A DNA stretch of 64,000 nucleotides from Halobaculum halobium (GTDB lineage: Archaea > Halobacteriota > Halobacteria > Halobacteriales > Haloferacaceae), in NCBI RefSeq assembly GCF_030127145.1, contig NZ_CP126159.1:372001-436000 (forward strand). The letters are read 5' to 3'. Positions 38,950 to 62,305 of this stretch are shown here, piece after piece (the first letter of the stretch is position 1; every line of letters begins with the position of its first letter). Under the pieces are notes generated by a model, which was not told the origin of the DNA, searched no databases, and was given only the letters and a program-made list of their open reading frames with translations. The position numbers and the translations under genes are program-made.

Positions 38950-40576
38950 CGAGTGTCAATCTCACGCCGATCACGAAAGAAGAGCAGCCGACCTCCCACG
39001 TCACCGTGGGAAAGAGTAAAGTCGGGTCGCGGGCGGAGATCGCCCGCGTCCGCCACGCCGGCCGCGAGGCGTTCTTTCGAGTCGACACCGAGGAGGACGG
39101 CTTCGCGTCCACGATCAAGAACAAGGTCTATCTGAACAGTAACGTCGCGACGCTGTTCGGGGGGATCAACCGAACCAACGACTTCTACGTGGACACCGAC
39201 GTGTCGCTCGGGAGCGTCAGAGCCTGCAAGCGCGCGACCATCTACGCCGAGGGAGTAAACGAGGAGGCGTTGACGTCGGCGCTCGCCGAGCGACAGTTCC
39301 TCTTGCACCCCATCCACGAGGTCGTCGATATCGGCGGCGAGCGCGTCGAGTTCGTCGTCGACGAACTGGAGCCGCGCGGGACGACCCTCCGCGTGGACGA
39401 GGACACCGAGTTTGTGTTCCTCGATGAGCCGCCGGCGAGCACGGGCCCGCCGGCGGGCGCCGGGGACGGGACCGACGCCGATGGAGCGCCCGGCGGCGAC
39501 GGGTCCGGCGGGGCGGCGCCGCGGGCGACGAGGAGGAGGCCAACATCGACATCACCCCGCAGAACCCGACGACGAGCTTCGAGGAGGACGTCGCGGGACT
39601 CGAGGAGGTGAAGAACACCGCAGAGATGATGCTGTCGCTGTTCGAGCCCGACGTCCGCGACGAGGTCGTCGAGCGCTACGGGGAGGAGTTCGCCGACCGC
39701 GGCGGCGGCATGATGCTGTACGGCCCCCCCGGTTGCGGGAAGACGCTCGTCTCTGAGGCGATCGCCTACGAGGCGAAGCACAACACCGACATCGAGGACA
39801 GCTACGGCGAGGTTGTCTTCCTCGAGGTCCGCGGCAGCGACGTGGTCTCAAAGTACTCCGGCGAGTCCGAGAAGAACGTCCGCGCAGCCTTCGAACAGGC
39901 ACACGAGGCGGCCGGCGACGGGTTCGCCGTCCTCTTTTTCGACGAGGTGGAGACGCTCATCCCGGACCGCTCGGACGACATCCAACGCCACGAGCGCGCG
40001 CTGACGAACGCGTTCCTGCAGGAGATGAACGACGTGGAGGACAACCTCCTCGTCATCGGCGCGACGAACATGCCGTTCAGCATCGACCCGGCGGCGACCC
40101 GTCGATTCCCGATCCAGCAGTTTATCCCCCAACCCGACGCGGCCGTGATGTCTGAGGTGTGGCGCACGTCGCTCGGGCGTATCAGCGAGGAACTTGGCGA
40201 GGAGGCCATCGCAGAACTTGGCGAGGCGTCGGTCGGATACACCCCCGCGGAGATCGCTGACCGCATACTCGGCTCGGAACTGCAGCGCGAACTCATCGAG
40301 AGCGTCATCGACGGCGACGCGATCACGCCAGACAAGGAGTACCTCATGGAGAAGCTCGAGGAGTCCGAGCCCAAGACCGTCCGGCAGTACGTCTCCTCGA
40401 CGATGAAACAAGCCTCGGAGCTGGAAGGATACCCGGAGATGAAGCGCTACCTCGAGGAACAGGCTCAGCAGATCCGCGAGGAGAACGCCACGAGTGCGAA
40501 CGCGGCCGCGACATCCGACGGCGCCGCAGGCGAAGAGGGATCGGCCGCGTCTGGGAGCGACACGGAGGCCGAGTAG
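38946..40576 (+). CDS. Cdc48-N-domain single-ring AAA+ ATPase (apparent frameshift at about 39510)
   Basis: Read as one gene of about 543 residues. Residues 1-160 resemble the Cdc48/VAT N-terminal double-psi barrel plus its small second domain (CKRATIYAEGVNEEAL; RGTTLRVDEDTEFVFLDEP). After an Ala/Gly/Asp linker comes one AAA+ module: TSFEEDVAGLEEVK, Walker A GPPGCGKT (39724-39747), pore loop VVSKYSGESEKN, Walker B VLFFDEVE, and sensor GATNMPFSIDPAATRRF. Unlike Cdc48 it has only one AAA ring. The N-domain frame and the AAA frame differ; without correction the first ends in an Arg-rich tail at 39611. Adding one G to GGGG at 39510-39513 joins them. Likely an unfoldase or remodeller serving the tubulin module. 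Confidence 0.85.
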
Positions 40577-40578
40577 CC

Positions 40579-43500: not shown

Positions 43501-43589
43501 AGGCGGCCGTCGCCTCGGACGACTGGACCCTTGACGTCGAGACGGACGAGTCACGGCTACCGTCTCGGCTCTCGACGCAGTACGAGTAG
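40579..43589 (+). CDS. Beta-propeller and Ig-like repeat protein (apparent frameshift at about 42630)
   Basis: Starts at GTG 40579, two nt after the AAA+ stop. The first 95 residues are acidic and disordered. About 95-350 contain short beta repeats of a PQQ/WD-like propeller (AVATADGRVSLITSGDRRRV; VYVRTGDGEFVVVEGRTG). About 355-620 are Ig/CARDB-like units (VVLAFTNEGDRAVEVDATV; AAIDVENDGDTSVTG). The frame runs into low-quality sequence and stops at 42729. A second frame continues the same kind of protein to 43589 (VVFEERLVVANESAEP). Adding one G at about 42630 joins them as ADPGEGVVFEERL, giving about 1,003 residues. No signal peptide or TM segment, so probably a cytoplasmic scaffold. Function unknown. 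Confidence 0.75.
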
Positions 43590-43797: not shown

Positions 43798-46530
43798 TCA
43801 CGTAGACATCTGTGTGAGGAACTCTCCCGTCGTGGCCGCTTCGGCGTCCTGCACGTACGCGTACGTGCGGAAGGCGACGCGCACGAGCACCAACACAACG
43901 ACGAGTCCATAGGCTCCGATCGCTCCGAAGAGCCCGTATCGACTGATCGTCAGGCGTTCTTCGACTGTCGCCGCACGGTCGGCGGCTGTGCTCGCCTCGT
44001 CGGTCGCCCCGGCCCGCTCGAACCCCTCGACCGAGTCGTCGTACCGACTGTTGATCTGGTCGACCTCTTGGAGCACCGTGTCCGTGCGCGCGGGATTGAA
44101 CACGAGCGGATAACCGGCGAGCACGAGGGTCGCGTTCGAACGGTATCCCGCGTACGCGGAGTCAGCCGTCGCACGGTCACTTGCAGCGTCGTCGACGAGC
44201 GACCGGTAACGCGCCGACGCGTCTTCGTAGCTGGACTGATGTCGCCGTTCGGCCTCCTCGTCGCCGGTGTAATCGGCGAGTTGCATTAGCGCCCGGTGTG
44301 CCTCCGCCGACTCGATCGCCGATTCGTTCGCCTCGGCGACACCGGTGTAGTGCTCACGTTGGGTAGATGCGGTGGCCTCGAACGCTGAATCGGCCGCCGC
44401 GACGCCGCCCTGTGCGGTCGACCGAAGCTCGGGCTGCTCCAGCGACCCGGCGTACTGTCGCATCAGGTCCCGGGCGACTGCCGCCCTCGCGAGCGATCGC
44501 TGTGCCTGTGCGTAGCTTCCGTTTTCCTGTGCCGCCCGAGCGGTGTCGATCGAGTCGACGAACAGCAACGTCGCCCGTCCCGCGGCGAGTCCTCGCGAGA
44601 GGTCAGAGCCGGGAACGTCGGCGTCACCGCGGAGGCGCTCCTCCATCGACAGGAGCATGTCGTTCATCGGTCCGGCCGTGTCGGCTTTCCACTGCTCCTC
44701 TGAGTCGTACGCGCCGAGTGGTTCCGTGATACGATCGAAGCTGTACGGCTTCGCCGCCGCGGTCACGGTGACCGTCTGCGTCTCGACGCCGTCACCGGAA
44801 ATTCGGAAGCGCCAGCGATACTGCTGGTACAGTTCCGCCTGCGTATCGAACTGCAACGCGACGACCATCGGCTTGACCTCTCCAGCCTCGACGGTGCCGC
44901 TGGGTCGGCTGACCACCGTGAGCCAGCGGTCCGGTCCGTCCACCTTCTCCACCTGCAGGTTCTCGATCGACTCGAAGCCGAGCCGCTCGGCCACGTCGAT
45001 CGTCTGTGTGCGGTTCTCGGTGATCGTCACGTCGCCGTACGTGACGGAGTCGGCCACCGCTAGGTCGGGTTCCTGTGCGATCGTCACCGTCCGCGTGATC
45101 GTCTGTGTGCCGGCGTCTTCCGTCCGAACGGTTATCTCGACGTCGTACTCGCCCTCCGGCGTGTCGTCGTCGGCCGAGAGCGACAGGGTCGCCGACCCGG
45201 TCGAGAGGCCGTCGACGGTGTTCGGAAGGTCCGAAACGTCGGCTGTGATGTACTGACTTCCGGACGCCATCGTCGCATCGGCGCTCAAGACGTTCATCTC
45301 CAGGTCGCCGGAGTTGACGATGCCGACCTCCTCACTCGCTTGGAACGTCGAGGTCGAAGCTTTGGGTTCGTCGAACGGAATATCCGGGTCGGACGCCTCG
45401 ACGCGTTCGAGGTTCGCGGGGTAGATCACCCGCCCGGTGACGGTGAACGTGTAGCTGGGCGCGTCCTGCGCCTCGGGCGTCACCCGCACGTCCCACTCCA
45501 GGTCCTCGTGTTGGTCCGCGCTGTCGCGGGCGGACATCGTCGCCGAGACGGTGTCGCTGCCGCCCGGGCTCGTGGTGGCGTACTGGAGGTCATCGAAAGA
45601 GACGCTGCCGTCCGTCTCCGCGCCGATGACCTCGACGTCGAGCCCGTCGAGGCCCTCGTTCCCGGCGACCTCCTGGATCTGGAAGTCGACAGTGCTGGAG
45701 GAGCCAACGAGCACGTCGCCGACGTTCACCTCGTCGTCGGGAACCGAGACGATCGGCGGCTTCACCACATCGACGGAGACGGTCACGTCTCGGGTGTTGC
45801 CGAGGTTGTCCTCCAATCTCATCGTGAAGCTGTACGATCCCGCGGACACGTCGTCGTCTGCGGTGACTTGGATCTCCACGTCGCCCTCGTCGTTCGCGTC
45901 GATCGTGCCGGGGATCGACTCGGTGTCGACGGAGAAGCCCGAGGGAACGTTCGAGAACGTCGCATCGGAGATCACCATCGCCCCCTCGCCCGTGTTCGGG
46001 ACGCTCACGTCGAAGGTACTCGACTGCGACTGGCTGTTGGAATCGTCGAAGACCAACGTCGGGTTCCCGGCGTCAGGGAAGCCGAACTCGGGGTACAGTA
46101 CGTCGACGTACACGTCGAGTCCCTCGGAGTGGGACGCGGCACCCGAGATTTGGGCCGTTCCGGAGTACGTCTGCTCGCTGACTTCTCCGGTCACGATCAC
46201 ATCGTACGTGACCTCGTACTCCGCTCCGGCGACGGCGGTCCAGGAGCTGGAACTCCCGCCGCCACCGCCGCCGGCGTCGATCCGATCCCACGAGTCGAAC
46301 TCGAAGACGACGTTCCCGTTCGCTCGGCTGATCTCGTCGGTCGCCTGGACCGTTCCGTTCGAGTCAGCCGTGAACGTGAACGAGAGCTCGTCGGTCACCG
46401 TCTGATCGGTGAGCGCCGCGTCCGTCTCGACGGTCGTAGAGACGCCGAGGGCCGGCGTCGCCGCGCCGAGCGCGACGACGACCGTCAGCAGGACCGCGAG
46501 GAACGGGACTGACCGCGTCCGGCGGCTCAT
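43798..46530 (-). CDS. Secreted Ig-like-domain protein with C-terminal membrane anchor (tubulin operon)
   Basis: 910 residues from the ATG at 46530, which overlaps the previous stop (ATGA). A signal peptide (residues 1-28, FLAVLLTVVVALGAATPALG) leads into an extracellular region of repeated Ig/CARDB-like beta domains to about 580 (TFDVSVPNTGEGAMVISDAT; STFQASEEVGIVNSGDLEMN). An alpha-helical segment spans about 600-860. One transmembrane helix near 870-890 (YGLFGAIGAYGLVVVLVLV) is followed by a short cytoplasmic tail. It is the last gene of the operon. It may link the membrane-bound machine to the S-layer or another surface structure; that is inference. Confidence 0.85.
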   Translation of the reverse strand: MSRRTRSVPFLAVLLTVVVALGAATPALGVSTTVETDAALTDQTVTDELSFTFTADSNGTVQATDEISRANGNVVFEFDSWDRIDAGGGGGGSSSSWTAVAGAEYEVTYDVIVTGEVSEQTYSGTAQISGAASHSEGLDVYVDVLYPEFGFPDAGNPTLVFDDSNSQSQSSTFDVSVPNTGEGAMVISDATFSNVPSGFSVDTESIPGTIDANDEGDVEIQVTADDDVSAGSYSFTMRLEDNLGNTRDVTVSVDVVKPPIVSVPDDEVNVGDVLVGSSSTVDFQIQEVAGNEGLDGLDVEVIGAETDGSVSFDDLQYATTSPGGSDTVSATMSARDSADQHEDLEWDVRVTPEAQDAPSYTFTVTGRVIYPANLERVEASDPDIPFDEPKASTSTFQASEEVGIVNSGDLEMNVLSADATMASGSQYITADVSDLPNTVDGLSTGSATLSLSADDDTPEGEYDVEITVRTEDAGTQTITRTVTIAQEPDLAVADSVTYGDVTITENRTQTIDVAERLGFESIENLQVEKVDGPDRWLTVVSRPSGTVEAGEVKPMVVALQFDTQAELYQQYRWRFRISGDGVETQTVTVTAAAKPYSFDRITEPLGAYDSEEQWKADTAGPMNDMLLSMEERLRGDADVPGSDLSRGLAAGRATLLFVDSIDTARAAQENGSYAQAQRSLARAAVARDLMRQYAGSLEQPELRSTAQGGVAAADSAFEATASTQREHYTGVAEANESAIESAEAHRALMQLADYTGDEEAERRHQSSYEDASARYRSLVDDAASDRATADSAYAGYRSNATLVLAGYPLVFNPARTDTVLQEVDQINSRYDDSVEGFERAGATDEASTAADRAATVEERLTISRYGLFGAIGAYGLVVVLVLVRVAFRTYAYVQDAEAATTGEFLTQMST

Positions 46531-47528
46531 TGGCCCGGCACCTCCACTGGGTCGCGCGGAACGATCTGTCCTACCTTCGAGCCGTCGACATCCTCGGCCC
46601 ACGTCGCGATCCGCCAACCGAACGCGGCCGCGACGAGTCCGACAATGAGGGCGTACACGAGCGACAGTATCGTCGCGGCCACCGACAGCGAGAACAGCGC
46701 GTCGCTGGTCGCGGTCTCGAGCGTGTTCGCACGCTCGCTCTCGGCGTCGAGGCCGTGCTTCTCGGCCAGTTGGACTGCGACGCCAGCGTCGGCTGTCGCA
46801 GAGCGCGCGTCGGTGTAGGTGCCGAATACGCCTGGACCGAGCGTCGTCATGGCAGCGACGGGCGACCCGCACGCGTCGCCGCAGTCGTCGACGAACGCGC
46901 CGGCGGCGGTTATCGACGACTCCATTCGCTCGCGGTCGGACTCGTAGATCGCTCGAATGCGACTCGCCTCGGCGCTGACGGCCGAATATCGGCTGCTCGC
47001 CCCGGCGGCTTCAAACGCCGACGCGGCGCTCTCGAGGTCTTCGAGTTCGTCCGACGTGTCAGTCGCCTCGCGTGATCGCTCATACAACACCTCGCCGCGT
47101 TGGCGGTAGAACCGCTCGAGGCCGAGGCGTGCCAACGTCGCGTAGTTGTCGCCGTCCGCCGCTTCGAGCTGATCGATCGCTTGTGCGGTGGCATCGGCTC
47201 GCTCGAGGCTCTCATCAGTGCTGTCGTTCTGCGCGGCGCGATAGGCCGCGGAGAACTCCTCGAGCACGGTCACGACCGCGGCCATTCGCTCGCGGTCGGC
47301 TTCTGTGAATTCGCCCGTCTGTACGTCTGTGACCGCCTGTCCGCGCATCACCTCGAATTCGCTGTACGTCGACAGCGCCGGCGAGTCCTCGTATTGCCGC
47401 AGCTCCGCGAGGAACTCGTCGGCCGTCTCGGCGTCCGTCTGGGTCGCCCCGACGGGTACCGTGCCGACGACGAGCAGGAGACACACGGCGATCGTTGCGA
47501 TCGGTGGGGTAAGTTGGTCGGATAACAT
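46527..47528 (-). CDS. Membrane-anchored helical protein (tubulin operon)
   Basis: 333 residues. Signal peptide (IATIAVCLLLVVGTVPVGA), then an extracellular all-helical region with a TPR-like look (ESAASAFEAAGASSRYSAVS) and an isolated Cys pair (DDCGDACGSP) that could form a disulfide. One transmembrane helix lies near residues 280-303, with a short cytoplasmic tail. It has the same layout as its neighbour, a secreted domain anchored at the C-terminus. The stop overlaps the next start by 4 nt, so expression is coupled. No known family is recognised. Confidence 0.82.
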   Translation of the reverse strand: MLSDQLTPPIATIAVCLLLVVGTVPVGATQTDAETADEFLAELRQYEDSPALSTYSEFEVMRGQAVTDVQTGEFTEADRERMAAVVTVLEEFSAAYRAAQNDSTDESLERADATAQAIDQLEAADGDNYATLARLGLERFYRQRGEVLYERSREATDTSDELEDLESAASAFEAAGASSRYSAVSAEASRIRAIYESDRERMESSITAAGAFVDDCGDACGSPVAAMTTLGPGVFGTYTDARSATADAGVAVQLAEKHGLDAESERANTLETATSDALFSLSVAATILSLVYALIVGLVAAAFGWRIATWAEDVDGSKVGQIVPRDPVEVPGQ

Positions 47529-47530
47529 GG

Positions 47531-50413
47531 TCAGTACATCGTCCTGTTGAGTCGGTCGAGCAGCCGCGGGTGTTCGAACAGTTCCGTCACCGCCTCGACG
47601 AATCCAGCGACTGCGAAGACGAACGCGGCGTTGCGCACCTCATCGGACTCTCTCGTCTCGCGTTCGTACTCCCGGAGTTCTTCGAGGACGTCGCCGGCGG
47701 GCGAAATGACGTTCACCTCGCTCCGTTGGTCCTCGACGGTCGATTCAGCTTCTGAGAGCCGCGATTTTAATTCCGCTCGCTGGCCCACGCGGTCGGACGC
47801 CACAAGATCGAAGAGGTCGTCGAGGTCGTAGTCCGCCCGCCATTCCTCGGAGACCCCTCGCATGTCGGCGCACGCGCTGAAGAGGTCGACGTTGTGTTTC
47901 GTGTTCATCGCGTTGTCGACCCCCTCGACGCAGCCGCGCCCAGCCGATACCATCGCGTCGACGACCGGGTCGGGATCGATGCTCGTCTCCGCGAACCGGA
48001 TGCCCGACTCAGGGACCCGTTCGGCGGCGTCGGCCAACGAGCGTGCGACGCTGGCGTAGTACCCGTGAACGGCTGAGTCGAGTCGCCCGCTCGGGACGAG
48101 TTCGTCCGCCTCGCTGCGCAACGCCTCGATTGCTTCCCGCTGTGTCGCCGACAACTGGTACTCGAAGGGCACGTCCAGTGTGACGGCCACCGTGTCGTCC
48201 TCTGGGACCGTGACACGCTGTCGTACCTCCTCGAACGGTGCGGCATCGACCGAGCCGACGAGCGTGTACTCGCCCGCCGGAAGGCCGACCGCGTCGCCGC
48301 CCTCGTCCGTCGGGTTCGACTGCTGGAGCCGCTCGCGCAGCCACTCGTCGTCGGTGTCCAGACTAACTTCGACCGCGTCGGTCGGATCGCCGCCGATGGC
48401 GGTTTCGACTCGGAGCGTCCCGGTCTTCCCGACGACGCGCAGTTCAGACGGGAGGTCGTTCGGGTCGGTCACCCGGCGCGTGTCCGGTTCGTATCGGTCG
48501 TGTTCGGCGGTCACTTCTACGGTGGAGGCGGTTACCGGGAGCGTCAGCGACGCCCGCCCGTTCGCGTCGGTCGGCTCGGAGATCCGCTGACCGTCGAACT
48601 CGGCGGTCACGGTCGCACCCTCCACCGGCTCTCCCGTCTCGTCGATGACGCTGACGTGTTTCGTCACGGGTTGGAAGCTGAGCGTCAGTCGTTCGTCGAG
48701 CAGCTCCGCCGTCTCGGTGACGGTGGCCCCGTTGTAGGAGGCGGTGAACTCGTACGGTTCGGCCTTGAGCGTCCACGTGACGATCCCGCCGTCGACGGCC
48801 TCTTCGCGGCCGCCGCCGTTTCGATTCACGCCGCTGGTCGATGCCGACGACTGTCCCGTCGGGCGCGCGGTCAGGTACACCTCCTCGGAGAGCTGCTCGT
48901 TCGCGAACCCGTCGGTGATCCGAACTCGCACGTCTCGCGTCTGCTGTGTGGCCGCGGCCGACCCGCCGGCGCCCGAACCGCCGCCCATCGACTGTCCGAC
49001 GGCGTATCCGACTCCCAACACGAGAAGCACGATCAGCCCAGCACCCAGCCCGAGCGTGAACTGTCCGAAGGGGATGCCTCCCGAGGAGAATGGCAACAGG
49101 GACGACTCGTTTCCGGTAGATCCGTTCGCCGTTCCGTTCGTGTCGGGCGATGGATCGGTAGCCGGCTGGAGCGATGACAGCTCACCGCCGTCGCCGACGC
49201 TGACGGTCGTCGCCGGCGCGTCGGCAAACGCGACGACCATCCGGTAGGAGCCGGCCGGGTTCAGTTCGGATTCGTTCGGGAGCCCGGACAGTGAGAGCGT
49301 CGCGCCGTCGACCGACGCGTCACTCATGACGCTGACCTCACTCGATGTAGCCAGGAGGACGAACGAGACAGCACCACCGCTGAACGGGCCGTCTTCGAGC
49401 GACACGCTACGGTTCCCTTCGTTGACGGTCGCGGTGTTCGGATCAGTGTCGTTGTAGGTCGGAGACACCACAGACGACCCCGCAGTTGTGACGTCGACAG
49501 CGACGCTGTCGGCGCCAGCGAGGTACTCGTTCTCGACGGTCACCGACGTGACGCCGTCTGTCTCGCGTGCGGACGTGGTGGCTGCGTACTCGCCGTCCGG
49601 TCCGGTCGTGGTGAGGTGAACGCCGTATTCAGTGCCGCCGACCAACAGCGGCGACTGGACCGTCACGCGCCCAGGGGACACGAGGACTGTCGCGGGGCGT
49701 GCCGCGTCCGCGAGCGACACGTCCGTATTGCCCGAGAGCGACGGGCCGCCGTCGGTAGCCGCGAGCGTCAGGGTCGCCGGCGGGGTCAGTAGCCCGGTAA
49801 ACGCGTCGTTGCGGTCTATCGTGACAGTACCGTTGTCGAGCGTCGCCGAGAGCGTCGCAGAGCGACCGTCGCCGGCGGCGGTCGCCGCCAGTTGGAACGA
49901 CGACCCGTCGAGCCCGGCGGTGTCGTTCGTCGCCGTCAGGGTGAGCCGTCCGCTGTCGTCGAAGGACGCGCTCGCTGCGGTGTCGAGGTGCCGGAGGTCG
50001 ACGCCCTGTTCGGTGAGATAGTCGGTTCCGTTGCCGCCCTCGGCCGAGACCGTGATCGTAGTGTTCGCGAGCGGGAAGTCGGGGAGGTCACCTGACGCGA
50101 TCCGGTAGCGGTACACGTCGTTCGAGTTCGGATTTTCGGCCGTCGTGGTAACGGTGTCTTCCCCGCCGGACGACTCGAACAGGACGTTCACCGCCGACTC
50201 GTTCCCGACGCGCTCGGCATCGAGTTCGAATCGGAGCGCTCCCGAGTCCGCCTGGCTGAGATCACCGGCCGCCGTCACCGTCCCCGACTCAGTCAGCCCG
50301 TCGGCCGTACTAGCGCCAGGCGCTGCGACCGTTGCCGCGGCCGTCGCCGGCCCGGCGACGAGTCCGATCGCGAGGAGTGCCACGAGCACCGACTGAAGCG
50401 TCTTCGTTCCCAT
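47531..50413 (-). CDS. Large membrane protein with extracellular beta and cytoplasmic carboxypeptidase-regulatory-like domains
   Basis: 960 residues from the ATG at 50413 (MGTKTLQSVLVALLAIGLVA, signal peptide). Residues 30-430 are a secreted, Thr/Ser/Gly-rich beta region. A single TM helix lies near 447-467 (FTLGLGAGLIVLLVLGVGYA). After it come Ig/CNA-B or carboxypeptidase-regulatory-like repeats (KHVSVIDETGEPVEGATVTA; LRVVGKTGTLRVETAIGG) and a helical C-terminus to 960. Having such beta repeats on the cytoplasmic side is unusual. It lies 5 nt from the tubulin-like gene upstream. It may be the transmembrane link between the filaments and the surface. Confidence 0.82.
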   Translation of the reverse strand: MGTKTLQSVLVALLAIGLVAGPATAAATVAAPGASTADGLTESGTVTAAGDLSQADSGALRFELDAERVGNESAVNVLFESSGGEDTVTTTAENPNSNDVYRYRIASGDLPDFPLANTTITVSAEGGNGTDYLTEQGVDLRHLDTAASASFDDSGRLTLTATNDTAGLDGSSFQLAATAAGDGRSATLSATLDNGTVTIDRNDAFTGLLTPPATLTLAATDGGPSLSGNTDVSLADAARPATVLVSPGRVTVQSPLLVGGTEYGVHLTTTGPDGEYAATTSARETDGVTSVTVENEYLAGADSVAVDVTTAGSSVVSPTYNDTDPNTATVNEGNRSVSLEDGPFSGGAVSFVLLATSSEVSVMSDASVDGATLSLSGLPNESELNPAGSYRMVVAFADAPATTVSVGDGGELSSLQPATDPSPDTNGTANGSTGNESSLLPFSSGGIPFGQFTLGLGAGLIVLLVLGVGYAVGQSMGGGSGAGGSAAATQQTRDVRVRITDGFANEQLSEEVYLTARPTGQSSASTSGVNRNGGGREEAVDGGIVTWTLKAEPYEFTASYNGATVTETAELLDERLTLSFQPVTKHVSVIDETGEPVEGATVTAEFDGQRISEPTDANGRASLTLPVTASTVEVTAEHDRYEPDTRRVTDPNDLPSELRVVGKTGTLRVETAIGGDPTDAVEVSLDTDDEWLRERLQQSNPTDEGGDAVGLPAGEYTLVGSVDAAPFEEVRQRVTVPEDDTVAVTLDVPFEYQLSATQREAIEALRSEADELVPSGRLDSAVHGYYASVARSLADAAERVPESGIRFAETSIDPDPVVDAMVSAGRGCVEGVDNAMNTKHNVDLFSACADMRGVSEEWRADYDLDDLFDLVASDRVGQRAELKSRLSEAESTVEDQRSEVNVISPAGDVLEELREYERETRESDEVRNAAFVFAVAGFVEAVTELFEHPRLLDRLNRTMY

Positions 50414-50418
50414 TTCGA

Positions 50419-51617
50419 TCACCTCGCGTTTATCGACACGTAGCGTTCGAGGTTCTCTGACAGGTCGGCGACGTGGGCCTCGGAGATGGCGTCTTCGGGC
50501 GTGTTGCCGAGTTGGCGAGCCGCCTCGACGTTCTGCTTGTGGGTTTCGAAGGCGTCCCGCGAGTGATCGAGCAGCGGGTTCAGATCGAACCCGCCGAGCA
50601 ACACAAGCACGTCGACGTCGTTGCCGCGGGTCTGCTTCGGCGTGAGCGTCGTCATCCCGACGGCGCCGCCGATGTCGTTGTCCCGCTTCCACTCGCCGAA
50701 CGCCGACTGGATCCCCGTCTCCGTGATGTCGCCCGACTCGATGAGCTGTTCGGGCGCACGAACGACTGCGTACGCCGCCCGCGAGGTCGTCACGTCCATC
50801 GGGACGAACGTCTGCTCGGCCGCGCGGTCGAACATCAGTTCGTACTCGAGCATCCGTCCGTTGAGTCCGGTCGCGACGGCGGGCGTGAAGTGGTACGCCC
50901 CGATGTTCGACGGCTGGGCGACGTAGTCCTCAACGTCGATGACGCCGCGGGCCTCGCGCCCGGCGCTGATGAACAGGTCGATCGCGGTGACGATCCGGTC
51001 GTTGACCGCGTCATAGCTTCCTTGGGTCCCGTCACCGTCGAGGTGTGAGTTACTCGCCAGCAACACCATATCGGCGTTCTGCTGACCGTCGCGTCGCATC
51101 AGGAGCCTGGACAGCCCCATCACGGCGTTAAACTGGCGCTGTGCGGGTTCGTCGTAGTACGGCCACGCCGCAAGCGCGACGTGAACGACGCTGTCCATCC
51201 ACGGCCGGAGGTTCGACGCCTCAGATCCGCCCGACAGTTGCTCGATCAGGTACGGGATCGAGCCGTTGCCGGTGCCGCCGCCGAGCGTCGTCATGTGCAT
51301 GAACGCGTCGGCACCCGTCATCCGCTCTTGAATGTCGCCAGTGATGAGGTCGATGTCCTCGCGGGCGCACTCTTCGCCCGCGATGAAGTTGTTGCCAACG
51401 CCGCGCTTCGAGCCAAACACCGTCGTGTACTCGGAGGTATCGTCGAGTGACGCCCGCTCGATGGTGTTCAGGATGTCCGCGCGGTTCGTGTTCAACAGTG
51501 CGATCCTGTCGTCGATTCCGGGATTTTCCTCGCGTGCGAGCAACTCGGCCGCGATCCGGCCGCCGCCCTCCCCCGACGAGATAACCCCCAGCGAGTGAAC
51601 GTGTCCGCCCGGGACAT
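50419..51617 (-). CDS. Tubulin/FtsZ-superfamily protein 3 (apparent frameshift near 51587)
   Basis: About 399 residues if repaired. From the ATG at 51617, which overlaps the previous stop as TGATG, the frame reads MSRADTFTRWG and then loses sense. Adding one G to the GGGGG run (51585-51589) continues it as VISSGEGGGRIAAELLAREE. That is the N-terminal nucleotide-binding loop the family should have. The uninterrupted part contains the tubulin signature GGGTGNGS (51261-51286) and a T7-like D-x-x-D in GVIDVEDY (about 50928-50948). It is the most divergent of the three tubulin-like proteins and probably binds GTP. It is embedded in the membrane-protein operon. Not canonical FtsZ1/FtsZ2 or CetZ. 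Confidence 0.85.
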
Positions 51618-53701: not shown

Positions 53702-54741
53702 AGAATCACCGCCAGGAGGTCACCGCCGCCGAGGACCGCGCCGGCCGCCGCCGTGAGCAGCGCCACCGCGCCGACGGCCAGCGGAACCGCGATCTGCTTC
53801 GGGCTGTACTGGGTTGCCGTCGAGACACCGCGGTCGATCTCGATTTTCTCTAACGTCCGTCGGGCGAGGAAGTATCCCAGGCCCCCGCCGACGACAAGTC
53901 CGCCGACCAGCGAGCCGACGAGGACAAGCCGGACGGTGTTTGCCGCGCGTTCCCCGCGCTGTTCGAGCGCGACGAGATACGCCTGCAGGTTCTCGCGAGT
54001 CGTCTCGCGGGTGGCCGAGCGCGATGTTCTGACGCCGTCGATCACCGTCCGCGCGTCCTCGGCATCGCCCGACTCGGCGGCAGCGAACGTCGCCCGTTCG
54101 AGCTGCTGGCCGGCGGTCGTTAGGTTGGCTTCCTCGATGGTCGCCAGTCGGTCGGCCGGGTCGGTCTCGAGCGCGTTGTCGTCTTCGGCCGCCGCTGCGA
54201 GCGCTGCCGAGGCGTTTCTCATGGCCGAGCGCCGAGTCTCGAAGGTCTCGTTCGCATTCCGGTACGCCTCCAAATCCGACTGAGAGCCGAACTGGAGGGT
54301 AACTGGCTCGCCGTCAACAGTTGTAGTGGTCGCGTACCCCTGCTGGATACCGATCGTCGGTCCGCCAAGGTCTGCCTTCTGCGTGACCGCATCCGCGAGT
54401 GCGACCGAGTCTGCGTCGGCAGTGGCGCGGACGACGACGCTCTCCTCACGCTCCGTCTGAACGTCGATACCCTGTACTGCGCCCGCGTCGAAGCCCCAGG
54501 CCACGTCGTACGGCTCGGGCTCGCCGCTGGAACAGACGTACAGCGTCAGCGTCGTCTCCGGGTACACCGTCGCGTCTCCGACGCGGTCGTCAGTGTCGTA
54601 GTAGGCTACGAGCCGGTTGTCATCAACGCCCGCACACGGTGCGTTCGGGCTCGCGGCCGCCGCGGCGCCGGCAGGTCCGACTGCGAGCGCGACCGCGAGG
54701 AGCGCTACCGTGAGCGCGACGCCAGTTCGCGTGCGGGTCAT
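53698..54741 (-). CDS. Small secreted/membrane protein with two C-terminal TM helices (tubulin operon)
   Basis: 347 residues from the ATG at 54741. Signal peptide (TVALLAVALAVGPAGAAAAA), an extracellular domain with two Cys (PCAGVDD and LYVCSSGE) that may pair, then a helical segment. Two transmembrane helices sit near 275-297 (LVLVGSLVGGLVVGGGLGYF) and 322-345 (VPLAVGAVALLTAAAGAVLG). It overlaps the following gene by 4 nt. No known family; the repeated secreted-plus-anchor layout suggests one envelope-spanning assembly. Confidence 0.8.
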   Translation of the reverse strand: MTRTRTGVALTVALLAVALAVGPAGAAAAASPNAPCAGVDDNRLVAYYDTDDRVGDATVYPETTLTLYVCSSGEPEPYDVAWGFDAGAVQGIDVQTEREESVVVRATADADSVALADAVTQKADLGGPTIGIQQGYATTTTVDGEPVTLQFGSQSDLEAYRNANETFETRRSAMRNASAALAAAAEDDNALETDPADRLATIEEANLTTAGQQLERATFAAAESGDAEDARTVIDGVRTSRSATRETTRENLQAYLVALEQRGERAANTVRLVLVGSLVGGLVVGGGLGYFLARRTLEKIEIDRGVSTATQYSPKQIAVPLAVGAVALLTAAAGAVLGGGDLLAVIL

Positions 54742-54742
54742 C

Positions 54743-55030
54743 TCAGCGCATCCCCCGGTTCCGGTACGCGAACACCGCACCGCCGATGGCGCCGACCCCG
54801 ACGCCGAGGCCGCCGCCGAGAAGCGCCGGCGAGAGGGGAAGCGACGCCATGGATACCGCGGCGTTCGTCTCCTCGTGCTGACTTGTGATCTCGTCGGTGA
54901 GCGTTGCGATCGTCGGAGTGTCATCGGCGGACTCTTGGGCGAGGCCAGGCGCCGCGAACACGCCGCCAAGCAGGATCAGTCCGACCGCGAGAAGCAGTGC
55001 GACGCCGCGCGTACTGTCGACTCCCTTCAC
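54743..55030 (-). CDS. 95-residue signal-plus-TM mini-protein (tubulin operon)
   Basis: 95 residues. An N-terminal signal or first helix (GVALLLAVGLILLGGVFAAP), a short extracellular Thr/Glu-rich stretch, then a glycine-rich transmembrane helix (ALLGGGLGVGVGAIGGAVFA) and a basic tail YRNRGMR. It overlaps the upstream tubulin-like gene by 4 nt and lies 1 nt from the next gene. Glycine-zipper helices of this kind can oligomerise. Function unknown. Confidence 0.78.
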   Translation of the reverse strand: MKGVDSTRGVALLLAVGLILLGGVFAAPGLAQESADDTPTIATLTDEITSQHEETNAAVSMASLPLSPALLGGGLGVGVGAIGGAVFAYRNRGMR

Positions 55031-56190
55031 GGCGTCACCCCCGCCGCGTGCTCGGCTGCGAGGTCTTCGATCTCCGACAGCCGAGAGATGTCCTCACGAG
55101 CGAACGTCAACAGCGTCGTGAACGACGCGAGGTTCCGCTTCGTTAGCGTCATCCCGATGTTGACCTCTGGGCAGTACGAATCGAGCAGTCCCCGGATCAC
55201 CGACACCTGGATCCGGTAGTCATCGTCGACCAGGTACGGCGCCGGCGCTCGAACCTGCCCGATCGCTTTGACCGCGTCCGCTGGACTCACGTCCTCGACG
55301 CTACGCTTCGAGACGGCCAGTCGAGAGAGCGTCGCCCCGTCGACCGATTTGCGCCCGATGAACGGAAGGAGATAGCCGGGGAGCGAGCGCGTCATCGTGA
55401 CCGATCGGCCGAGCGTCGCGTAGCCGACATCACCGTCGTCGAGCGTGAGTGACGTGACCACGTCCTGCAGGTCGATGACAGGTGCGTCGAGATCGTCGTA
55501 CTCGCCGGGGTTGATCCGCTCGAGGATCGGCCCGGAGATGAGGTCGACGATGGCCGAGGCCGCGTAGTCGTTGTACTCGTTGAACCGCCCCTCTGCGGCG
55601 TCCTCGTACGCGAGCCGCTGGTTATCGATGAGGATCACGCCGTCGACGTGCTCCTCGAGACGGTCGAGCCCGTAGATCGCGTTGGTCGCCTGTCGCGTGG
55701 CACTGGGCCCGTCATCGCCCGTCACTTGGCCCGCGGTGTTCGGCAGCACCGCGACGGCGATGATGTCAGTCGAGGACCCGCCGTACTCGCGGATCGCCTC
55801 CGCGAGATGCGGTGCGATCCCGCAGCCGGTGCCCCCACCCAACCCGAGGAACAGGAACGCGAACGGCGGTGAGCCGTCGCCGAACCGCTCTTCGTAGGCG
55901 TCGACCAGCTGCGGCTGCTGGCCGGCGAGTGCGGCGTCAGCCTTCTCCGGGTCCCGGCCGAATCCGCCGGTCACCTCTTCTTCGAACCCAGCCGTCGTGC
56001 CGGGCACGAGTCCGCTCCCCTCTGAGACACCATACCACGCCTCCCGTTCGATATTCGAGAGGTTTTGGAGGTCCCGTATCGTCGAATTGAACGCGATTGG
56101 CGTGGCCAGCTGGGCGACCCGCTGATGACTGAACACCGAATCCACCAGCGAACACCCGGCCTGACCAGCGCCGACAAAGAGATATGGCAT
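55027..56190 (-). CDS. Tubulin/FtsZ-superfamily protein 2
   Basis: 387 residues. The Rossmann-like start MPYLFVGAGQAGCSLVDSVF carries the first nucleotide loop, and the tubulin signature GGGTGCG is at 118-124. The T7-loop equivalent APVIDLQDVVTSL keeps D240 and D243, matching the two acidic residues of NVDFADV in FtsZ that trigger GTP hydrolysis in the neighbouring subunit. The fold is full length but too divergent for FtsZ1, FtsZ2 or CetZ, and there is no FtsZ-type C-terminal tail. Probably a GTP-dependent polymerising protein. An 80-nt gap upstream separates it from the preceding gene. AGGT lies five nt before the ATG. Confidence 0.88.
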   Translation of the reverse strand: MPYLFVGAGQAGCSLVDSVFSHQRVAQLATPIAFNSTIRDLQNLSNIEREAWYGVSEGSGLVPGTTAGFEEEVTGGFGRDPEKADAALAGQQPQLVDAYEERFGDGSPPFAFLFLGLGGGTGCGIAPHLAEAIREYGGSSTDIIAVAVLPNTAGQVTGDDGPSATRQATNAIYGLDRLEEHVDGVILIDNQRLAYEDAAEGRFNEYNDYAASAIVDLISGPILERINPGEYDDLDAPVIDLQDVVTSLTLDDGDVGYATLGRSVTMTRSLPGYLLPFIGRKSVDGATLSRLAVSKRSVEDVSPADAVKAIGQVRAPAPYLVDDDYRIQVSVIRGLLDSYCPEVNIGMTLTKRNLASFTTLLTFAREDISRLSEIEDLAAEHAAGVTP

Positions 56191-56270
56191 TGTCTACCTG
56201 TGTCTGACTTTTGGTAACGTCGACATAACTCTACCGTCACCTGTACACATTGCGATAACTGGAGTCGTGA

Positions 56271-57761
56271 TCACCCGCGGAGTTGTCTGAGCATCACGCT
56301 GTACTCGTTCCGTTCGTACAGCGCCTCGACATGGTCGAGCAGGTCGTCGGTCGCCGTGGCGATCCCCTCAGCACGTGCCCGCTCGCCAGCCATGAGTGAC
56401 TCGCGTGCGCGCTCTTCTAACGACTCCGTCAGCGACACGAAAAACATCGGGATGCTGTGGTTGTGGTCGGTCCGCGAGTCGACGTACCGCGTTCTGATCT
56501 CTTGTCTGCGTTCTTCCAACGCGTCGACAGCTGCACTAGCGTCGTCGGCCACCGTCCCCTCGGGTGCACTATCAGCGGTCGGTCCGTCCGTCTCTGCGGT
56601 GCTATCGGCCGTTCCCGATTCGAGCACCGGGACCAGATCGCGTTCGTAGAAGGCGACCTCCTCACGGATCGCGTACGGGACCACCGTGTTGCTTTCGTCC
56701 GCGCGCTCCAGCATGGCGTCGAGCCGGTCGGCGCGGTTGTCGAGCGCGTCTGCGACGGGGCCGTCGATTCCGGACACTGTCTCCCCGAGTGACTGGACCC
56801 GGGCCGACACGTCGGCGGGGTCGACGTCGACGGTGAGGTTACGCACCGTTGCGGCCTCGTTGAGCGCATCGACGCCCGCACGGAGCGCGTCGGCGACCTG
56901 CTCGGTGTCGTCGCTGGCGACGCCGTCGAGCAGATCCCGCGCCGGCTCGCACTCGGCACGATTGGTACCGCGGACGCGACGCGCCGCCTCCGCACCCGGC
57001 GCGTCAGCGGCGGAATCGGAGTCGGAGTCCGCGGCGGCCTCCGCGAGGTGCTCGATCCGATCGACCAGCGTCGCATCCCGTTCAGGGGTGGGGGAATCGG
57101 TGCGCTCGAGCGCGCGGTCGACGGCGACACGCGCATCCTCGATCTCCGTCGCCGCCGTCTCGTCGCCCCGGTCGCCCGCGGCTTCCGCCAGACGGGCCAC
57201 GTCGGCGGCGAGGTCGTCGTCGACGCCAGTCAGTCGACCGGCAGTCCGATCCGGGTCACCGGGTTCGAGCGCGCGGTCGATATCGTCGGTCGCCTCAAGG
57301 CGCTCAACGGCGGCCGCTATCGCCTCTCGGAGCGCCCCTTCTCCCGTGGCCGACGGCGTCGCGAGCGCATCGAGCAGCGCCGCGGATCGATGCCCCGTCG
57401 GTCGCTTCGATCGCGACACGTCCTCTGCGACGGAGGCGACGACGCCGTCGTCCTCGGATCCGCCCGCGGCGTGACTCTCCGAGGCGGTGCGATCGATGCT
57501 GAGCTGCCCTCGATCGACCAGCGTCGCAAGCTCCCGCGCCTTTGCGGCGGGCGGGGCGTCGTTCTCGACGCGGCCGTCAGGGCCGGCGATATCGGCGGCC
57601 GCCGCCAAGCGGTCCATCGACTCCGCGAGTTCGTCGAGCGTCCGTTTTACGTCGCCCTCGGTCGGGCGGGAGCCGAGACGATCGGCGATCGCCTCGATAT
57701 CCGGGTCGTCGGAGCCGCCGAACAGGCCCATGAACACGGCCGCAATAGGTGGTCCCGACAT
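56271..57761 (-). CDS. Uncharacterised acidic helical protein (tubulin operon)
   Basis: 496 residues, soluble, very acidic, Ala/Asp-rich and almost entirely helical. It starts near MGLFGGSDDPDIEAIADRL; the ATG at 57731 could be the true start, and 57761 is the most upstream one, 3 nt after the previous stop. There is no catalytic motif. The last 150 residues hold the best-defined blocks (YAIREEVAFYERDLVPVLES; EERARESLMAGERARAEG). Lying between two tubulin-like genes, it is a candidate filament-binding or regulatory protein. Family not recognised. Confidence 0.8.
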   Translation of the reverse strand: MSGPPIAAVFMGLFGGSDDPDIEAIADRLGSRPTEGDVKRTLDELAESMDRLAAAADIAGPDGRVENDAPPAAKARELATLVDRGQLSIDRTASESHAAGGSEDDGVVASVAEDVSRSKRPTGHRSAALLDALATPSATGEGALREAIAAAVERLEATDDIDRALEPGDPDRTAGRLTGVDDDLAADVARLAEAAGDRGDETAATEIEDARVAVDRALERTDSPTPERDATLVDRIEHLAEAAADSDSDSAADAPGAEAARRVRGTNRAECEPARDLLDGVASDDTEQVADALRAGVDALNEAATVRNLTVDVDPADVSARVQSLGETVSGIDGPVADALDNRADRLDAMLERADESNTVVPYAIREEVAFYERDLVPVLESGTADSTAETDGPTADSAPEGTVADDASAAVDALEERRQEIRTRYVDSRTDHNHSIPMFFVSLTESLEERARESLMAGERARAEGIATATDDLLDHVEALYERNEYSVMLRQLRG

Positions 57762-57764
57762 GGG

Positions 57765-59387
57765 TCACAGCATGTTGGACCGGCCGAGGCAGTCGAACAG
57801 CGGCTGCACCTCGTTCCACACGTCGCGGATGTCCTCCGCCTGCACGCTCTGGCCCTCGTCCTTCAGGCGCTTGGCGTGCTCGTACATTGACTCCAGCGAC
57901 GGCATTCGGGGGTTCCACAGCGTCCCCCACATGAACACGTCGTCGAGGTACGGGATGACGAGCTGGTTCACCTGCACGTCCACGGTTTCGACGCCCGAAC
58001 GAGTGCCGGCGTCGAGGAACTCCTCGCCGTTGAGGATTTCCTGGAGCGTCCCGTCGGTGACGTACTCGGAGATGTCCGACATCTGCTCCTCCGGCCCGTA
58101 GATCATGAAGTTGCCGCCCCACGCCGTCGAGGGATCGAAGTCCGCGAGCCGGTTTTGCAACAGCGTGTTACGCGCGAGCAGTTCGAGGCTGGACTCCGAG
58201 ATGTCGTCCGAACGGAGGCGTCCCAGCGCGGGCGCGAGCACGACCGCCGGGCGTTCCTCGGGCGCCATGTCGTGCGGGTACTTGTCTTCGACCAACCGGA
58301 AGCTGTCGGCCACGTCGAAGACGCTCCCGCGGATGCTCATCGTCGCATCGCGGTCAGTGAGCTGCGGCGTCGAGGACATGGTAAACGCTTCGAGAAACGC
58401 CACGAGCGGCTTATTGAGGTCCGAGAACTCGGGCGGGTTGTACCGGTCGATTCCCTCGATCCGCGGGTGGATGTCGGTGCTCGCTTGGCGGAGGTGGTCG
58501 TTGTTGAACGGGATGATCGCGTCGGCCGACCGCGAGATGCGCGACAGGCCGATCACGCCGTTCGTCTTCGCGCGGCCGCCGACGGCGGACTGTTGACCCC
58601 CTTCCGACGGGATGACGACCGAGCTGAGAATCGCCTGGTCGATGACGAGGCCCGACTCTTGGACCTCCTCTCGGAGCTTCTCGGCGATGACCGGCGTCGC
58701 GCCGCACCCGGTTCCTTTCGTGACGCTGTGGACGAGCATCACCGCTTGCGCGTCGCGGATGTCCTGACTCGTCATGTCCCAGCGGTCGCGGAAGGGGTTG
58801 CTTCCGTCGGCGAAATCGGCCTCGGCAACCTTCGCGCCGTTGCTCCATCGGTATCCCATCCCGCTGTACCCGTGTTTGCCGAACCCGATGATCGAGTTCG
58901 ACAGCAGGTCGTTTCGGGAGTACTCTTTCAGCTCCTTCGTGTAGTAAGTCTGTTCCAACTCTGCGATGTTGGTGTTGAGCAGGCCGTAGCCCGCGAGCCC
59001 GCCCTGCCAGATTCGGGCGCGGTCCTCGTGGTTGCGCGCGAGCGTGTCGCGGCGCATCAACACGGCGTCGACGATGTTGTTCCCCGCGCCGCCGATCCCG
59101 ATCAGGAACCACTTGCGACCGTACATCTCGCCGTCGTCGTCCATCGATACCGGGCCGAGGTCATCGGCGCCGCCCGGGTCACCCGGAGCGTCACCGCCCG
59201 AGGGATCGGGGCCGTCGGCGTCGGCGACCGCGTCCGCGCCGTCCTCGAACAGGCCCGCGAACCGGTCACCGTAGATGGCTCGGACCGATGGCTGCGCGTC
59301 ACCGTGAGCGTGCAGCAGGTGTTCTTCGATGGTATCTGTCTCCCAGTCCGCCGGTTCGGTGTAACATATCTCGCAAGATTCGGTCAT
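57765..59387 (-). CDS. Tubulin/FtsZ-superfamily protein 1 with N-terminal zinc-finger-like segment
   Basis: 540 residues. Residues 1-30 carry a C5-x2-C8 ... H23 ... H28 arrangement (CEICYTEP; EEHLLHAHGD) resembling a C2H2 zinc finger. An Asp/Gly-rich linker spans 45-90. Residues 92-540 form a tubulin-like domain: WFLIGIGGAGNNIVDAVL near 93-110, the glycine loop KGTGCGAT at 224-231, and a T7-like GSVFDVADSF with D358 and D361. Inserts make it longer than FtsZ. It probably binds GTP and polymerises, with the finger as a docking site. It follows the membrane coiled-coil gene by 22 nt. Confidence 0.88.
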   Translation of the reverse strand: MTESCEICYTEPADWETDTIEEHLLHAHGDAQPSVRAIYGDRFAGLFEDGADAVADADGPDPSGGDAPGDPGGADDLGPVSMDDDGEMYGRKWFLIGIGGAGNNIVDAVLMRRDTLARNHEDRARIWQGGLAGYGLLNTNIAELEQTYYTKELKEYSRNDLLSNSIIGFGKHGYSGMGYRWSNGAKVAEADFADGSNPFRDRWDMTSQDIRDAQAVMLVHSVTKGTGCGATPVIAEKLREEVQESGLVIDQAILSSVVIPSEGGQQSAVGGRAKTNGVIGLSRISRSADAIIPFNNDHLRQASTDIHPRIEGIDRYNPPEFSDLNKPLVAFLEAFTMSSTPQLTDRDATMSIRGSVFDVADSFRLVEDKYPHDMAPEERPAVVLAPALGRLRSDDISESSLELLARNTLLQNRLADFDPSTAWGGNFMIYGPEEQMSDISEYVTDGTLQEILNGEEFLDAGTRSGVETVDVQVNQLVIPYLDDVFMWGTLWNPRMPSLESMYEHAKRLKDEGQSVQAEDIRDVWNEVQPLFDCLGRSNML

Positions 59388-59409
59388 TTTGTATACTCAG
59401 TGGATACGG

Positions 59410-61326
59410 TTACGTGTACTTTTCGCGGAAGCGCCGGTGCGCCGTCGACATGGATCGCTCGATCGACGCCCCGTCCGCGGGCGTGAACTCGATGAACCCG
59501 GGCGGTTCGGGGCTCTGTAAGTCGACGGCCTCGAACAGATCGGACTGCCGCCCGGCGAATCGCTCGACGTTGACGAGCACGTCCGGCGTCGCGACCGCCT
59601 CCGGGAGGTCTTCGAGCCGGAACTGGACGATCCGGTCGTCGCCGTCGGCGGCACGCTCGAACTCGCGGAACGCGTACAACACGCCGTCGACGACCTCCTC
59701 CGGCGAGGCGACGCGAACCGACTCTCGCCCCGAACCGGTCCCGACAGTGTCGGGCTCGTTCGATGGACCGTCGCGATCGCCGGTGTCGCCCGAATCGAGG
59801 TCGTTCACAGCGTCTACTTCGGTTGATGATTCCGACTCGCCTGCGACCGCGTCGTACGTGAACGTGATTCGACCGCCGGCAGCGTCGATAGTCGCGTCGA
59901 CGCCGTCGTACCCGGCCCTGATGGCGGGAAGGATCGCCTCGAGGTATCCGTCGGGTATCTCCGTTGGGATCGAAACGGTGGCGTGACGAGCGTCGATCGT
60001 CGCCTCCAGTGTCGACACCAACTCGGCCGTCGTGACGAGCGTCGCCGCCTGCGTGGCGGCGTCCTCGGCGGTCGACAGCGCGTCTTCGAACTGGCAGTCG
60101 TGCAGGGATTCGCGCGCGCTATCGAGTTTCGATCGGACGTCGCGTGCGCCGACGAGATCGGGGTCGCGTCCGGCGAGCAACACCTCGTCGATCCGATCTC
60201 GGAAGGGAACATCCATCGCTCCGATCTGTTCGTCGAGCGTGTCGAGGCGGGCCTCGGTCGTCGAAATCGCTTCGACGACTGGCGCCTCCCGCTCGCGGAC
60301 GTGCGCTCGGACACGCTGCCGGTGCGCGTCGACCGCCTCGACCGCCGCGGCGACGGCGCCAAACGAGTTGGCTGTCCGCGTCAGCGACTCGAGTTCCTCG
60401 TCGACGTGATCGAGGTGGACTGCGTCCGCACCGCCTGGGATCGACACCTCGCGGTGCTTCGTCGGGAGGTTGACTGTTCGGTAGCGGTCGCCGTATTCGG
60501 AGCTGACGATGAACTCACCGTATTCAGTTCGGATACCGCTGGCGAGCGCCTGCCGGAGGCGCTCGGTGAGCTCTTCGATTCGGGCGTCCGGATCGACGCC
60601 GTCGATCTCCGACTCGACGCCGGCACGGGCTGCCTGGGCCGCCTCGCCGTCGGACATCGACCGGATCTCGGCGATGTCTTCGTCAATCCCGTCCAGGCGA
60701 GCGCGGAACTCATCGGCTCCCTCTCGAACGTCGCGAACGCCGCCGGGAGCGACGTTCGAGAGCGTTTCGAGCCCCTCGAATCGCGTGTCGAAATCGGTGT
60801 TGAACGCGGACCGGCGATTCGCGAGGTCAGCCTCCAGCCGTCCGAGGTCGTCGCCGGTCTCCTCGAGTACTACCTCATTCCACGGGTACGTCCCGACAGC
60901 GACCAACTGTAGCGCGGCCGCGCACACCGGAACAGCGTAGAACGCACCGAGCTGGACGAGCGGGATATCAGCCGAAGTCAGCGGTGCGTACACGCCGAAA
61001 AACAGCGCGAAGAACAACACCGACGAGAGCGTGGCTGCCCCGTAGGCAGCCTCTCTGTGTTCGACGACCAGCATCGCTGCTCCCTGCGCGGCCCACGCAA
61101 GCGCGATAAGCAGGAACAACCCCATTACGACCGCCGAACTGTTCTTGAAAACCACCGCCGCCTCGAACAGCACCGGGATAGACAACACCGGCTCGGCGAT
61201 GGGCGTGAGTCCCGCAGAGCTCGACGTGTAGCCGAACAGCGCCAACAGTGTTTGCACGAGCGCGATCACGAGGGGAACGCCCGCCGCTCCCCAGGCGATC
61301 GTTTGTCCGTGCGCGGTTCTAGGCAT
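59410..61326 (-). CDS. Multi-TM coiled-coil membrane protein, first gene of the tubulin operon
   Basis: 638 residues. About four hydrophobic helices in residues 8-150 (GVPLVIALVQTLLALFGYTS; VMGLFLLIALAWAAQGAAML) are followed by a large cytoplasmic part. Residues 155-445 are helical and coiled-coil-like (GRLEADLANRRSAFNTDF; TTEARLDTLDEQIGAMDV) with an embedded small beta segment (EYGEFIVSSEYGDRYRTV). The C-terminal region (510-638) is acidic. A clear TATA box lies 31 nt upstream, making this the likely first gene of an operon reaching to 43798. A membrane platform for the tubulin-like proteins is the simplest inference. Confidence 0.85.
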   Translation of the reverse strand: MPRTAHGQTIAWGAAGVPLVIALVQTLLALFGYTSSSAGLTPIAEPVLSIPVLFEAAVVFKNSSAVVMGLFLLIALAWAAQGAAMLVVEHREAAYGAATLSSVLFFALFFGVYAPLTSADIPLVQLGAFYAVPVCAAALQLVAVGTYPWNEVVLEETGDDLGRLEADLANRRSAFNTDFDTRFEGLETLSNVAPGGVRDVREGADEFRARLDGIDEDIAEIRSMSDGEAAQAARAGVESEIDGVDPDARIEELTERLRQALASGIRTEYGEFIVSSEYGDRYRTVNLPTKHREVSIPGGADAVHLDHVDEELESLTRTANSFGAVAAAVEAVDAHRQRVRAHVREREAPVVEAISTTEARLDTLDEQIGAMDVPFRDRIDEVLLAGRDPDLVGARDVRSKLDSARESLHDCQFEDALSTAEDAATQAATLVTTAELVSTLEATIDARHATVSIPTEIPDGYLEAILPAIRAGYDGVDATIDAAGGRITFTYDAVAGESESSTEVDAVNDLDSGDTGDRDGPSNEPDTVGTGSGRESVRVASPEEVVDGVLYAFREFERAADGDDRIVQFRLEDLPEAVATPDVLVNVERFAGRQSDLFEAVDLQSPEPPGFIEFTPADGASIERSMSTAHRRFREKYT

Positions 61327-62295: not shown

Positions 62296-62305
62296 AGACC
62301 CGTCG

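Follow-up and report, generated by a model that had tools for sequence, protein, structure and literature searches.

Layout of the locus

The window analysed here comprises 64,000 nucleotides of Halobaculum halobium (C2:372001-436000, on contig C2 of 463,690 bases); positions without a contig prefix are counted from its first letter. Sixteen genes in two convergent operons were found in it, and together they look like one machine, as yet uncharacterised, by which the cell surface is connected to a skeleton inside the cell. The first operon consists of eleven packed minus-strand genes (61326-43798; order of transcription P10, P09, P08, P07, P11, P06, P05, P04, P03, P02, P01), ten of them long open reading frames (ORFs) and the eleventh, P11, a short one; the second, of five plus-strand genes (35999-43589), is convergent with it and lies immediately downstream (Table 1). 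An operon of eleven packed genes at 43798-61326 had been delimited in a first-pass annotation of this DNA; it is real, but the convergent operon was missed, and the whole system reaches to 35999.

The eleven-gene operon encodes three tubulin-superfamily GTPases (P04, P07, P09), seven proteins with transmembrane or signal segments (P01, P02, P03, P05, P06, P10, P11) and one soluble helical protein (P08) in which no such segment was predicted. The composition given in the first-pass annotation was thus reproduced exactly, and the predicted segments support the membrane-spanning architecture that it had put forward. Of the ATGA-type overlaps, at least four in that annotation, three were recovered from the coordinates (P07/P11, P06/P05, P02/P01); a further junction (P05/P04) is TGATG. 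The ORF starts of P01, P03, P06 and P04 are displaced or needed trimming. A TATA-like element (TTTTATA) is located about 30 bases 5' of the P10 ATG, the placement expected for a leaderless haloarchaeal promoter. In Halobaculum magnesiiphilum an orthologue of P11 has a gene annotation of its own. P01 gave 29.1 bits against PF22544.

Table 1: Genes of the two convergent operons (window coordinates; aa, amino acids)
Gene	Coordinates	Strand	Features
P10	59410..61326	-	638 aa; opens the operon; 4-5 N-terminal transmembrane helices followed by a cytoplasmic coiled coil
P09	57765..59387	-	tubulin-superfamily GTPase, 540 aa; N-terminal CxxC...H...H finger, T4 KGTGCG, T7 FDVAD
P08	56271..57761	-	496 aa; acidic, soluble, helical
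P07	55027..56190	-	tubulin-superfamily GTPase, 387 aa; T4 GLGGGTGCG, T7 IDLQD
P11	54743..55030	-	95 aa; signal peptide, C-terminal transmembrane segment; ATGA-type overlap with P07
P06	53698..54741	-	347 aa; signal peptide and 2 transmembrane segments; fastest evolving
P05	51617..53701	-	694 aa; 2 N-terminal transmembrane segments, large cytoplasmic coiled coil, beta domain
P04	50419..51617	-	tubulin-superfamily GTPase, ~399 aa; T1 GEGGG, T4 GGGTGNGS, T7 IDVED
P03	47531..50413	-	960 aa; signal peptide, exoplasmic beta/immunoglobulin (Ig)-like part, central transmembrane segment, CarboxypepD_reg-type cytoplasmic part
P02	46527..47528	-	333 aa; signal peptide, exoplasmic coiled coil, C-terminal transmembrane segment
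P01	43798..46530	-	910 aa; signal peptide, HYDIN/VesB-type Ig-like repeats, coiled coil, C-terminal transmembrane segment
D1	40579..43589	+	~1000 aa; PQQ-type (PQQ_2) beta-propeller and beta-sandwich, no transmembrane segment; split across two frames in the assembly
D2	38840..40576	+	classical AAA+ ATPase, ~520-580 aa with approximate start; covered by ORFs 38331-39611 and 39608-40576, with a frame slip in this copy
D3	38305..38949	+	214 aa, helical; in 19 genomes
D4	37177..38211	+	344 aa, coiled coil; in 19 genomes
D5	35999..37144	+	~374-381 aa; likely start 36020; winged-helix-like by eye; first gene of the second operon; in 19 genomes

Co-occurrence of the two operons

The AAA+ ATPase D2 (110 bits against PF00004) was sought by a single-protein search of 391 Halobacteria genomes, homologues being accepted at E ≤ 1e-70. 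It was found in 38 genomes, exactly the 38 that carry the full tubulin operon, and was absent from all 351 genomes without P09; in three genomes of one genus it is kept although unlinked to, or distant from, the tubulin operon. Such strict co-occurrence, kept even without linkage, argues strongly that the two operons act together. In a comparison of flanks the second operon was conserved in about 19-21 of 24 loci. Profile scores of D2 failed to separate Cdc48-like from Vps4-like subtypes; its second region reads RRF rather than RPGR, which would suggest a Vps4-like enzyme. D3, D4 and D5 matched no Pfam family, and a PDB search with D5 gave no convincing match; a weak match of D5 to G6PDH (E 0.0004) was regarded as spurious.

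Distribution and synteny

Synteny was scored in 20-kb stretches around the P09 homologues of 39 other Halobacteria genomes. The ten scored genes were in the same order and on the same strand in 37 of the 39 loci (P06 falling below the detection limit in some), hence not by chance, and the conserved linkage in other Halobacteria on which the first-pass annotation had staked its proposal was observed. Orthologues of P10 were present in all 39 loci, two divergent ones included. The full operon is carried by about one Halobacteria genome in ten (38/391): Halobaculum, Halorussus, Halopenitus, Halorubrum, Natrinema, Halobiforma, Haloarchaeobius, Natronomonas, Halovenus, Halomicroarcula and Haloquadratum walsbyi are among the carriers. 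A P09 profile search returned the same 40 genomes, true members (E ≤ 1e-158) being well apart from other tubulins (E ≥ 1e-11); in a phylum-wide sample the profile was limited to Halobacteria. P09 had no match in phage or viral-contig collections, and a viral origin was dropped.

The operon is plasmid-borne in some hosts (Halobaculum, Halobacterium salinarum R1, Natrinema) and lies on contigs of 2.9-4.5 Mb, that is, on chromosomes, in at least 12 genomes. In H. salinarum R1 the eleven genes are on plasmid PHS2 (OE_RS12075 to OE_RS12025); two of the GTPases are annotated there as "cell division protein FtsZ" and the P04 orthologue as "hypothetical protein". The NRC-1 gene cetZ5/ftsZ5 (VNG6260G) was considered as a further member and is probably not one; gene numbering puts it near zurM (VNG6262G).

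Median pairwise identity was 0.55-0.60 for the three GTPases, and divergence was correlated across all pairs of families (r 0.81-0.96). The copies of two loci, L083 (family f1) and L081 (family f3), pair in all three GTPase clades; this phylogenetic agreement suggests that the unit was transferred as a whole.

The three GTPases

The three proteins were compared with PF00091 (Tubulin; curated cut-off 33 bits), TIGR00065 (FtsZ; 295.2 bits) and PF13809 (Tubulin_2; 27 bits). All three passed PF00091: P04, 36.7; P07, 53.7; P09, 52.2 bits. The motifs reported in the first-pass annotation are present: T1, T4 and the two acidic T7 residues are kept in each protein, T4 reading TLGGGTGNGS (P04), GLGGGTGCG (P07) and KGTGCGAT (P09). 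The T7 D-x-x-D aligns with NLDFAD of FtsZ and DSSE of CetZ, and the D is invariant among orthologues; a loss of T7 in P09, suspected by eye, was dropped after alignment. The CxxC...H...H finger is found at the N-terminus of most P09 members. On these sequence grounds P04, P07 and P09 are confirmed as probable members of the tubulin superfamily, and for P09 and a P04 orthologue the fold was also predicted. The AlphaFold2 model of the P04 orthologue (predicted local distance difference test, pLDDT, 76; predicted template-modelling score, pTM, 0.82) gave CetZ2 (E 1.5e-17) and CetZ1 (template-modelling score on the target 0.82) as best Foldseek matches; that of P09 gave CetZ2 4b45 (E 4e-14), the listed top matches all being of the tubulin superfamily with low template-modelling scores. 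A tubulin fold in at least two of the three, as had been anticipated, is thus indicated by Pfam for all and by CetZ as best match for the two modelled.

The TIGR00065 cut-off was missed widely by P04, P07 and P09 (26.9, 46.5 and 32.7 vs 295.2 bits). That of PF13809 was not reached either (P07, 23.0; P09, 14.5 bits; P04, no match; cut-off 27). In a tree of 70 proteins the three formed separate clades (Shimodaira-Hasegawa-like approximate likelihood-ratio support 100, 95 and 99 for P04, P07 and P09), FtsZ1, FtsZ2 and CetZ being grouped apart (84); none fell inside the CetZ clade, and the deep order of the clades is uncertain because of their long stems.

The host has six other PF00091 proteins. 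Its genome contains three ordinary CetZs and, at C1:885389-885799, a highly divergent CetZ-like sequence (63.9 bits) on a long branch.

Homology to FtsZl1 neighbourhoods

Family profiles were run against the neighbourhoods of Tubulin_2 (FtsZl1) genes across the phylum. In two families outside the Halobacteria, f16 and f24, the gene for an FtsZl1 of about 900 aa (the two tested scored 87.6 and 95.9 bits, cut-off 27) follows genes for a 146-aa protein, a homologue of P05 and a short homologue of P07; homologues of P02 and P01 lie next to these in divergent orientation. Comparison by hhalign gave, for P01, E 9.7e-54 over 723 columns; P07, E 3.8e-46; P02, E 3.4e-19; P05 (against a gene of 409-439 aa beside FtsZl1), E 2e-12 over 366 columns. 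No homologues of these four were found in control flanks. The P07 homologues adjoining FtsZl1 are of about 300 aa and keep a T1-like N-terminus (e.g. L236:12387-13277 and L243:7016-7915); these short tubulin-like proteins are apparently degenerate partner tubulins. MCR-alpha genes were found in both f24 genomes tested (four in each) and in one of three f16 genomes (one), which suggests Syntropharchaeum-like and ANME-1-like archaea as the hosts. Since P01, P02, P05 and P07 are homologous to genes beside FtsZl1, the sixteen-gene system is an elaborated relative of FtsZl1-centred systems, and by the defining scores it is not a member of them.

The two divergent Halobacteria loci, L084 (G081:C4:110920-130820) and L085 (G031:C9:99190-119090), carry P08, P09, P10 and a D1-like gene, detected by profile in the former and as a beta-propeller in the latter; the other genes are absent. 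Alongside these, L084 carries a 1144-aa FtsZl1 and an Mrr endonuclease, and L085 a MoxR AAA protein matching bpMoxR.

Proposed mechanism and alternatives

The system, in general form, would be a horizontally transferred, envelope-spanning, tubulin-based machine of sixteen genes, a reading to which we give an even chance. In its favour are the co-inheritance, the transmembrane and signal topology and the intact GTPase motifs, all three shown here, and also the predicted tubulin folds, the synteny in 37 of 39 loci, the correlated divergence of the parts, the homologous partners around FtsZl1 and the occurrence on both chromosomes and plasmids. P04, P07 and P09 would co-assemble into a polymer on the inner face of the membrane; P10 and P05, with their transmembrane segments and cytoplasmic coiled coils, would anchor it, perhaps together with P08. 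A P08 homologue of Natrinema sp. SYSU A 869 (L092:19996-21816) has a bPH_2 membrane-binding-type domain and a zinc ribbon, so that P08 may serve as a membrane adaptor. P01, P02, P03, P06 and P11 would couple the polymer across the membrane to exoplasmic Ig-like and coiled-coil domains, and the AAA+ ATPase D2, with D1 and D3-D5, would disassemble or reset it. The output would be local remodelling of membrane or surface (a bud, tubule, vesicle, contact or surface array), which would fall in the functional class proposed for FtsZl1-centred systems. The specific form, in which the three GTPases make a three-component hetero-oligomeric tubulin system within a trans-envelope complex, served by an AAA+ disassembly enzyme of its own and related to FtsZl1 systems by descent, is put forward tentatively, with the balance tipped against it. 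If true, it would be a mobile, self-contained cytoskeletal module, like eukaryotic microtubules and their AAA+ remodelling in logic, not in descent.

Several observations weigh against such a machine. None of the genes codes for a known membrane-fission, coat or motor protein. The parts other than the GTPases have a median identity of 0.26-0.34 (P06 left out), and therefore the outward parts could be ligand-binding instead of mechanical. No recognisable T4 of GGGTG type was found by pattern in six P07 homologues adjoining FtsZl1; with a recognisable T4 mostly absent there, not every relative needs to bind GTP. The P09 model, finally, is of low confidence (pLDDT 61.7, pTM 0.52).

The outward parts could also be read as exoplasmic Ig-like and coiled-coil receptors for a foreign cell, a virus or a surface, with the GTPases, AAA+ ATPase and beta-propeller as a switch-like effector. 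This sensing or conflict system, modelled on the proposal for MoxR-vWA-beta-propeller ternary systems, is considered unlikely, although it would suit the patchy distribution (10%), the carriage on plasmids, the fast-evolving membrane parts and the beta-propeller D1, as well as the MoxR-type AAA (bpMoxR match) of one divergent locus and the Mrr endonuclease of the other. PADLOC returned only generic AAA matches, no recognisable toxin, nuclease or protease was found in the sixteen conserved genes, and three complete tubulin GTPases would be unusual for a switch.

CetZ proteins control haloarchaeal cell shape, and both this role and the CetZ matches in Foldseek would fit an accessory shape or division cytoskeleton parallel to CetZ and FtsZ1/2. 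That reading is held to be somewhat less probable again: the three clades stand apart from CetZ and FtsZ, the host already has its six other PF00091 proteins, and about 90% of Halobacteria do without the operon. A plasmid-segregation system of TubZ type, to which the plasmids of Halobaculum, H. salinarum R1 and Natrinema and the presence of TubZ 4xcq among the P04 profile matches might point, is very improbable in view of the chromosomal location in the at least 12 genomes noted above, the seven membrane or secreted partners and the lack of P09 matches in phage and viral collections.

Comparison with described systems

FtsZl1-type systems were predicted to be membrane-remodelling machines by Makarova and Koonin in 2010 (PMC2875224). 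The present system resembles them in having a tubulin-superfamily GTPase among many lineage-specific membrane proteins and in sharing P01, P02, P05 and P07 with two archaeal families. It differs in that FtsZl1 is a protein of about 900-1100 aa with a long C-terminal extension, whereas three separate complete GTPases of 387-540 aa are found here, and in its AAA+/beta-propeller operon; vWA, P-loop GTPase and protein kinase domains were not found above Pfam cut-offs in the proteins searched from the sixteen genes. None of the papers found establishes what FtsZl1-type systems do or of which parts they consist; a strictly co-inherited list of sixteen parts is now supplied, of which those four are common to FtsZl1 loci.

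Halo.Tub, a CetZ-like Halobacterota group with several quasi-tandem copies and unknown or coiled-coil neighbours, is described by Santana-Molina et al. in 2023 (PMC9871819). The description fits the tubulin operon in words, and Halo.Tub may be one or more of P04, P07 and P09; the neighbourhood surveyed there extends 5 kb to each side, and in the text consulted a conserved 11- or 16-gene unit, membrane partners and an AAA+ operon are not described. Two adjacent CetZ-like genes in tandem at G037:C1:2084620-2086373 are an alternative candidate for Halo.Tub. Structurally, the folds predicted for P04 and P09 match CetZ itself best (4b45, 4b46), but the clades are separate, and the cetZ neighbourhood survey PMC9856176, as far as consulted, contains no such operon. 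FtsZ1 and FtsZ2 share the GTPase domain and its motifs; they are set apart by TIGR00065 (best score 46.5 vs 295.2 bits) and by the tree. P04 and P07 have weak profile matches to TubZ or RepX structures, and the operon is often plasmid-borne; CetZ is nevertheless the better profile match, the membrane partners are many and the location is chromosomal in many genomes.

The operon had been called undescribed, and no paper on the 11- or 16-gene unit was found in the literature searched, most subscription journals and all preprints lying outside the search; the term calls for some qualification, since four genes are shared with FtsZl1 neighbourhoods of other archaea and Halo.Tub may overlap with it. 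An operon that combines three different, complete tubulins with membrane partners of their own would be a new arrangement among prokaryotes. H. salinarum R1 is a culturable model strain with the eleven-gene operon, and its function is therefore open to direct testing.

Assembly and reading frames

Contig C2 begins with 55,333 bases that recur over its last 55.3 kb (99.93% identity, 29 gap openings); positions 36347-64000 of the window belong to this repeat. The redundancy marks the ends of a circular replicon, about 408 kb long, that was left unclosed, and a second copy of the cluster at C2:14.7-23 kb was rejected as a duplication, being the same DNA. The two end copies differ in their indels. 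The head copy interrupts P07 and P09, which are whole in the window; D2 residues 71-515 are in one frame in the head copy and split in the window, so that the D2 frameshift is an assembly indel. Both end copies have a one-base slip in P04, close to a G5 run at about 51589; it separates the ATG at 51617 from the T1 loop. That loop is found 5' of the ORF as listed and is one base out of frame with the ATG, and orthologues read MSRADTFTRWGVISSGEGGG through the slip site. Several frameshifts in the locus are assembly artefacts.

A beta-helix protein with NosL and NosD domains is encoded on the plus strand at 62285-64000 and runs past the end of the window.

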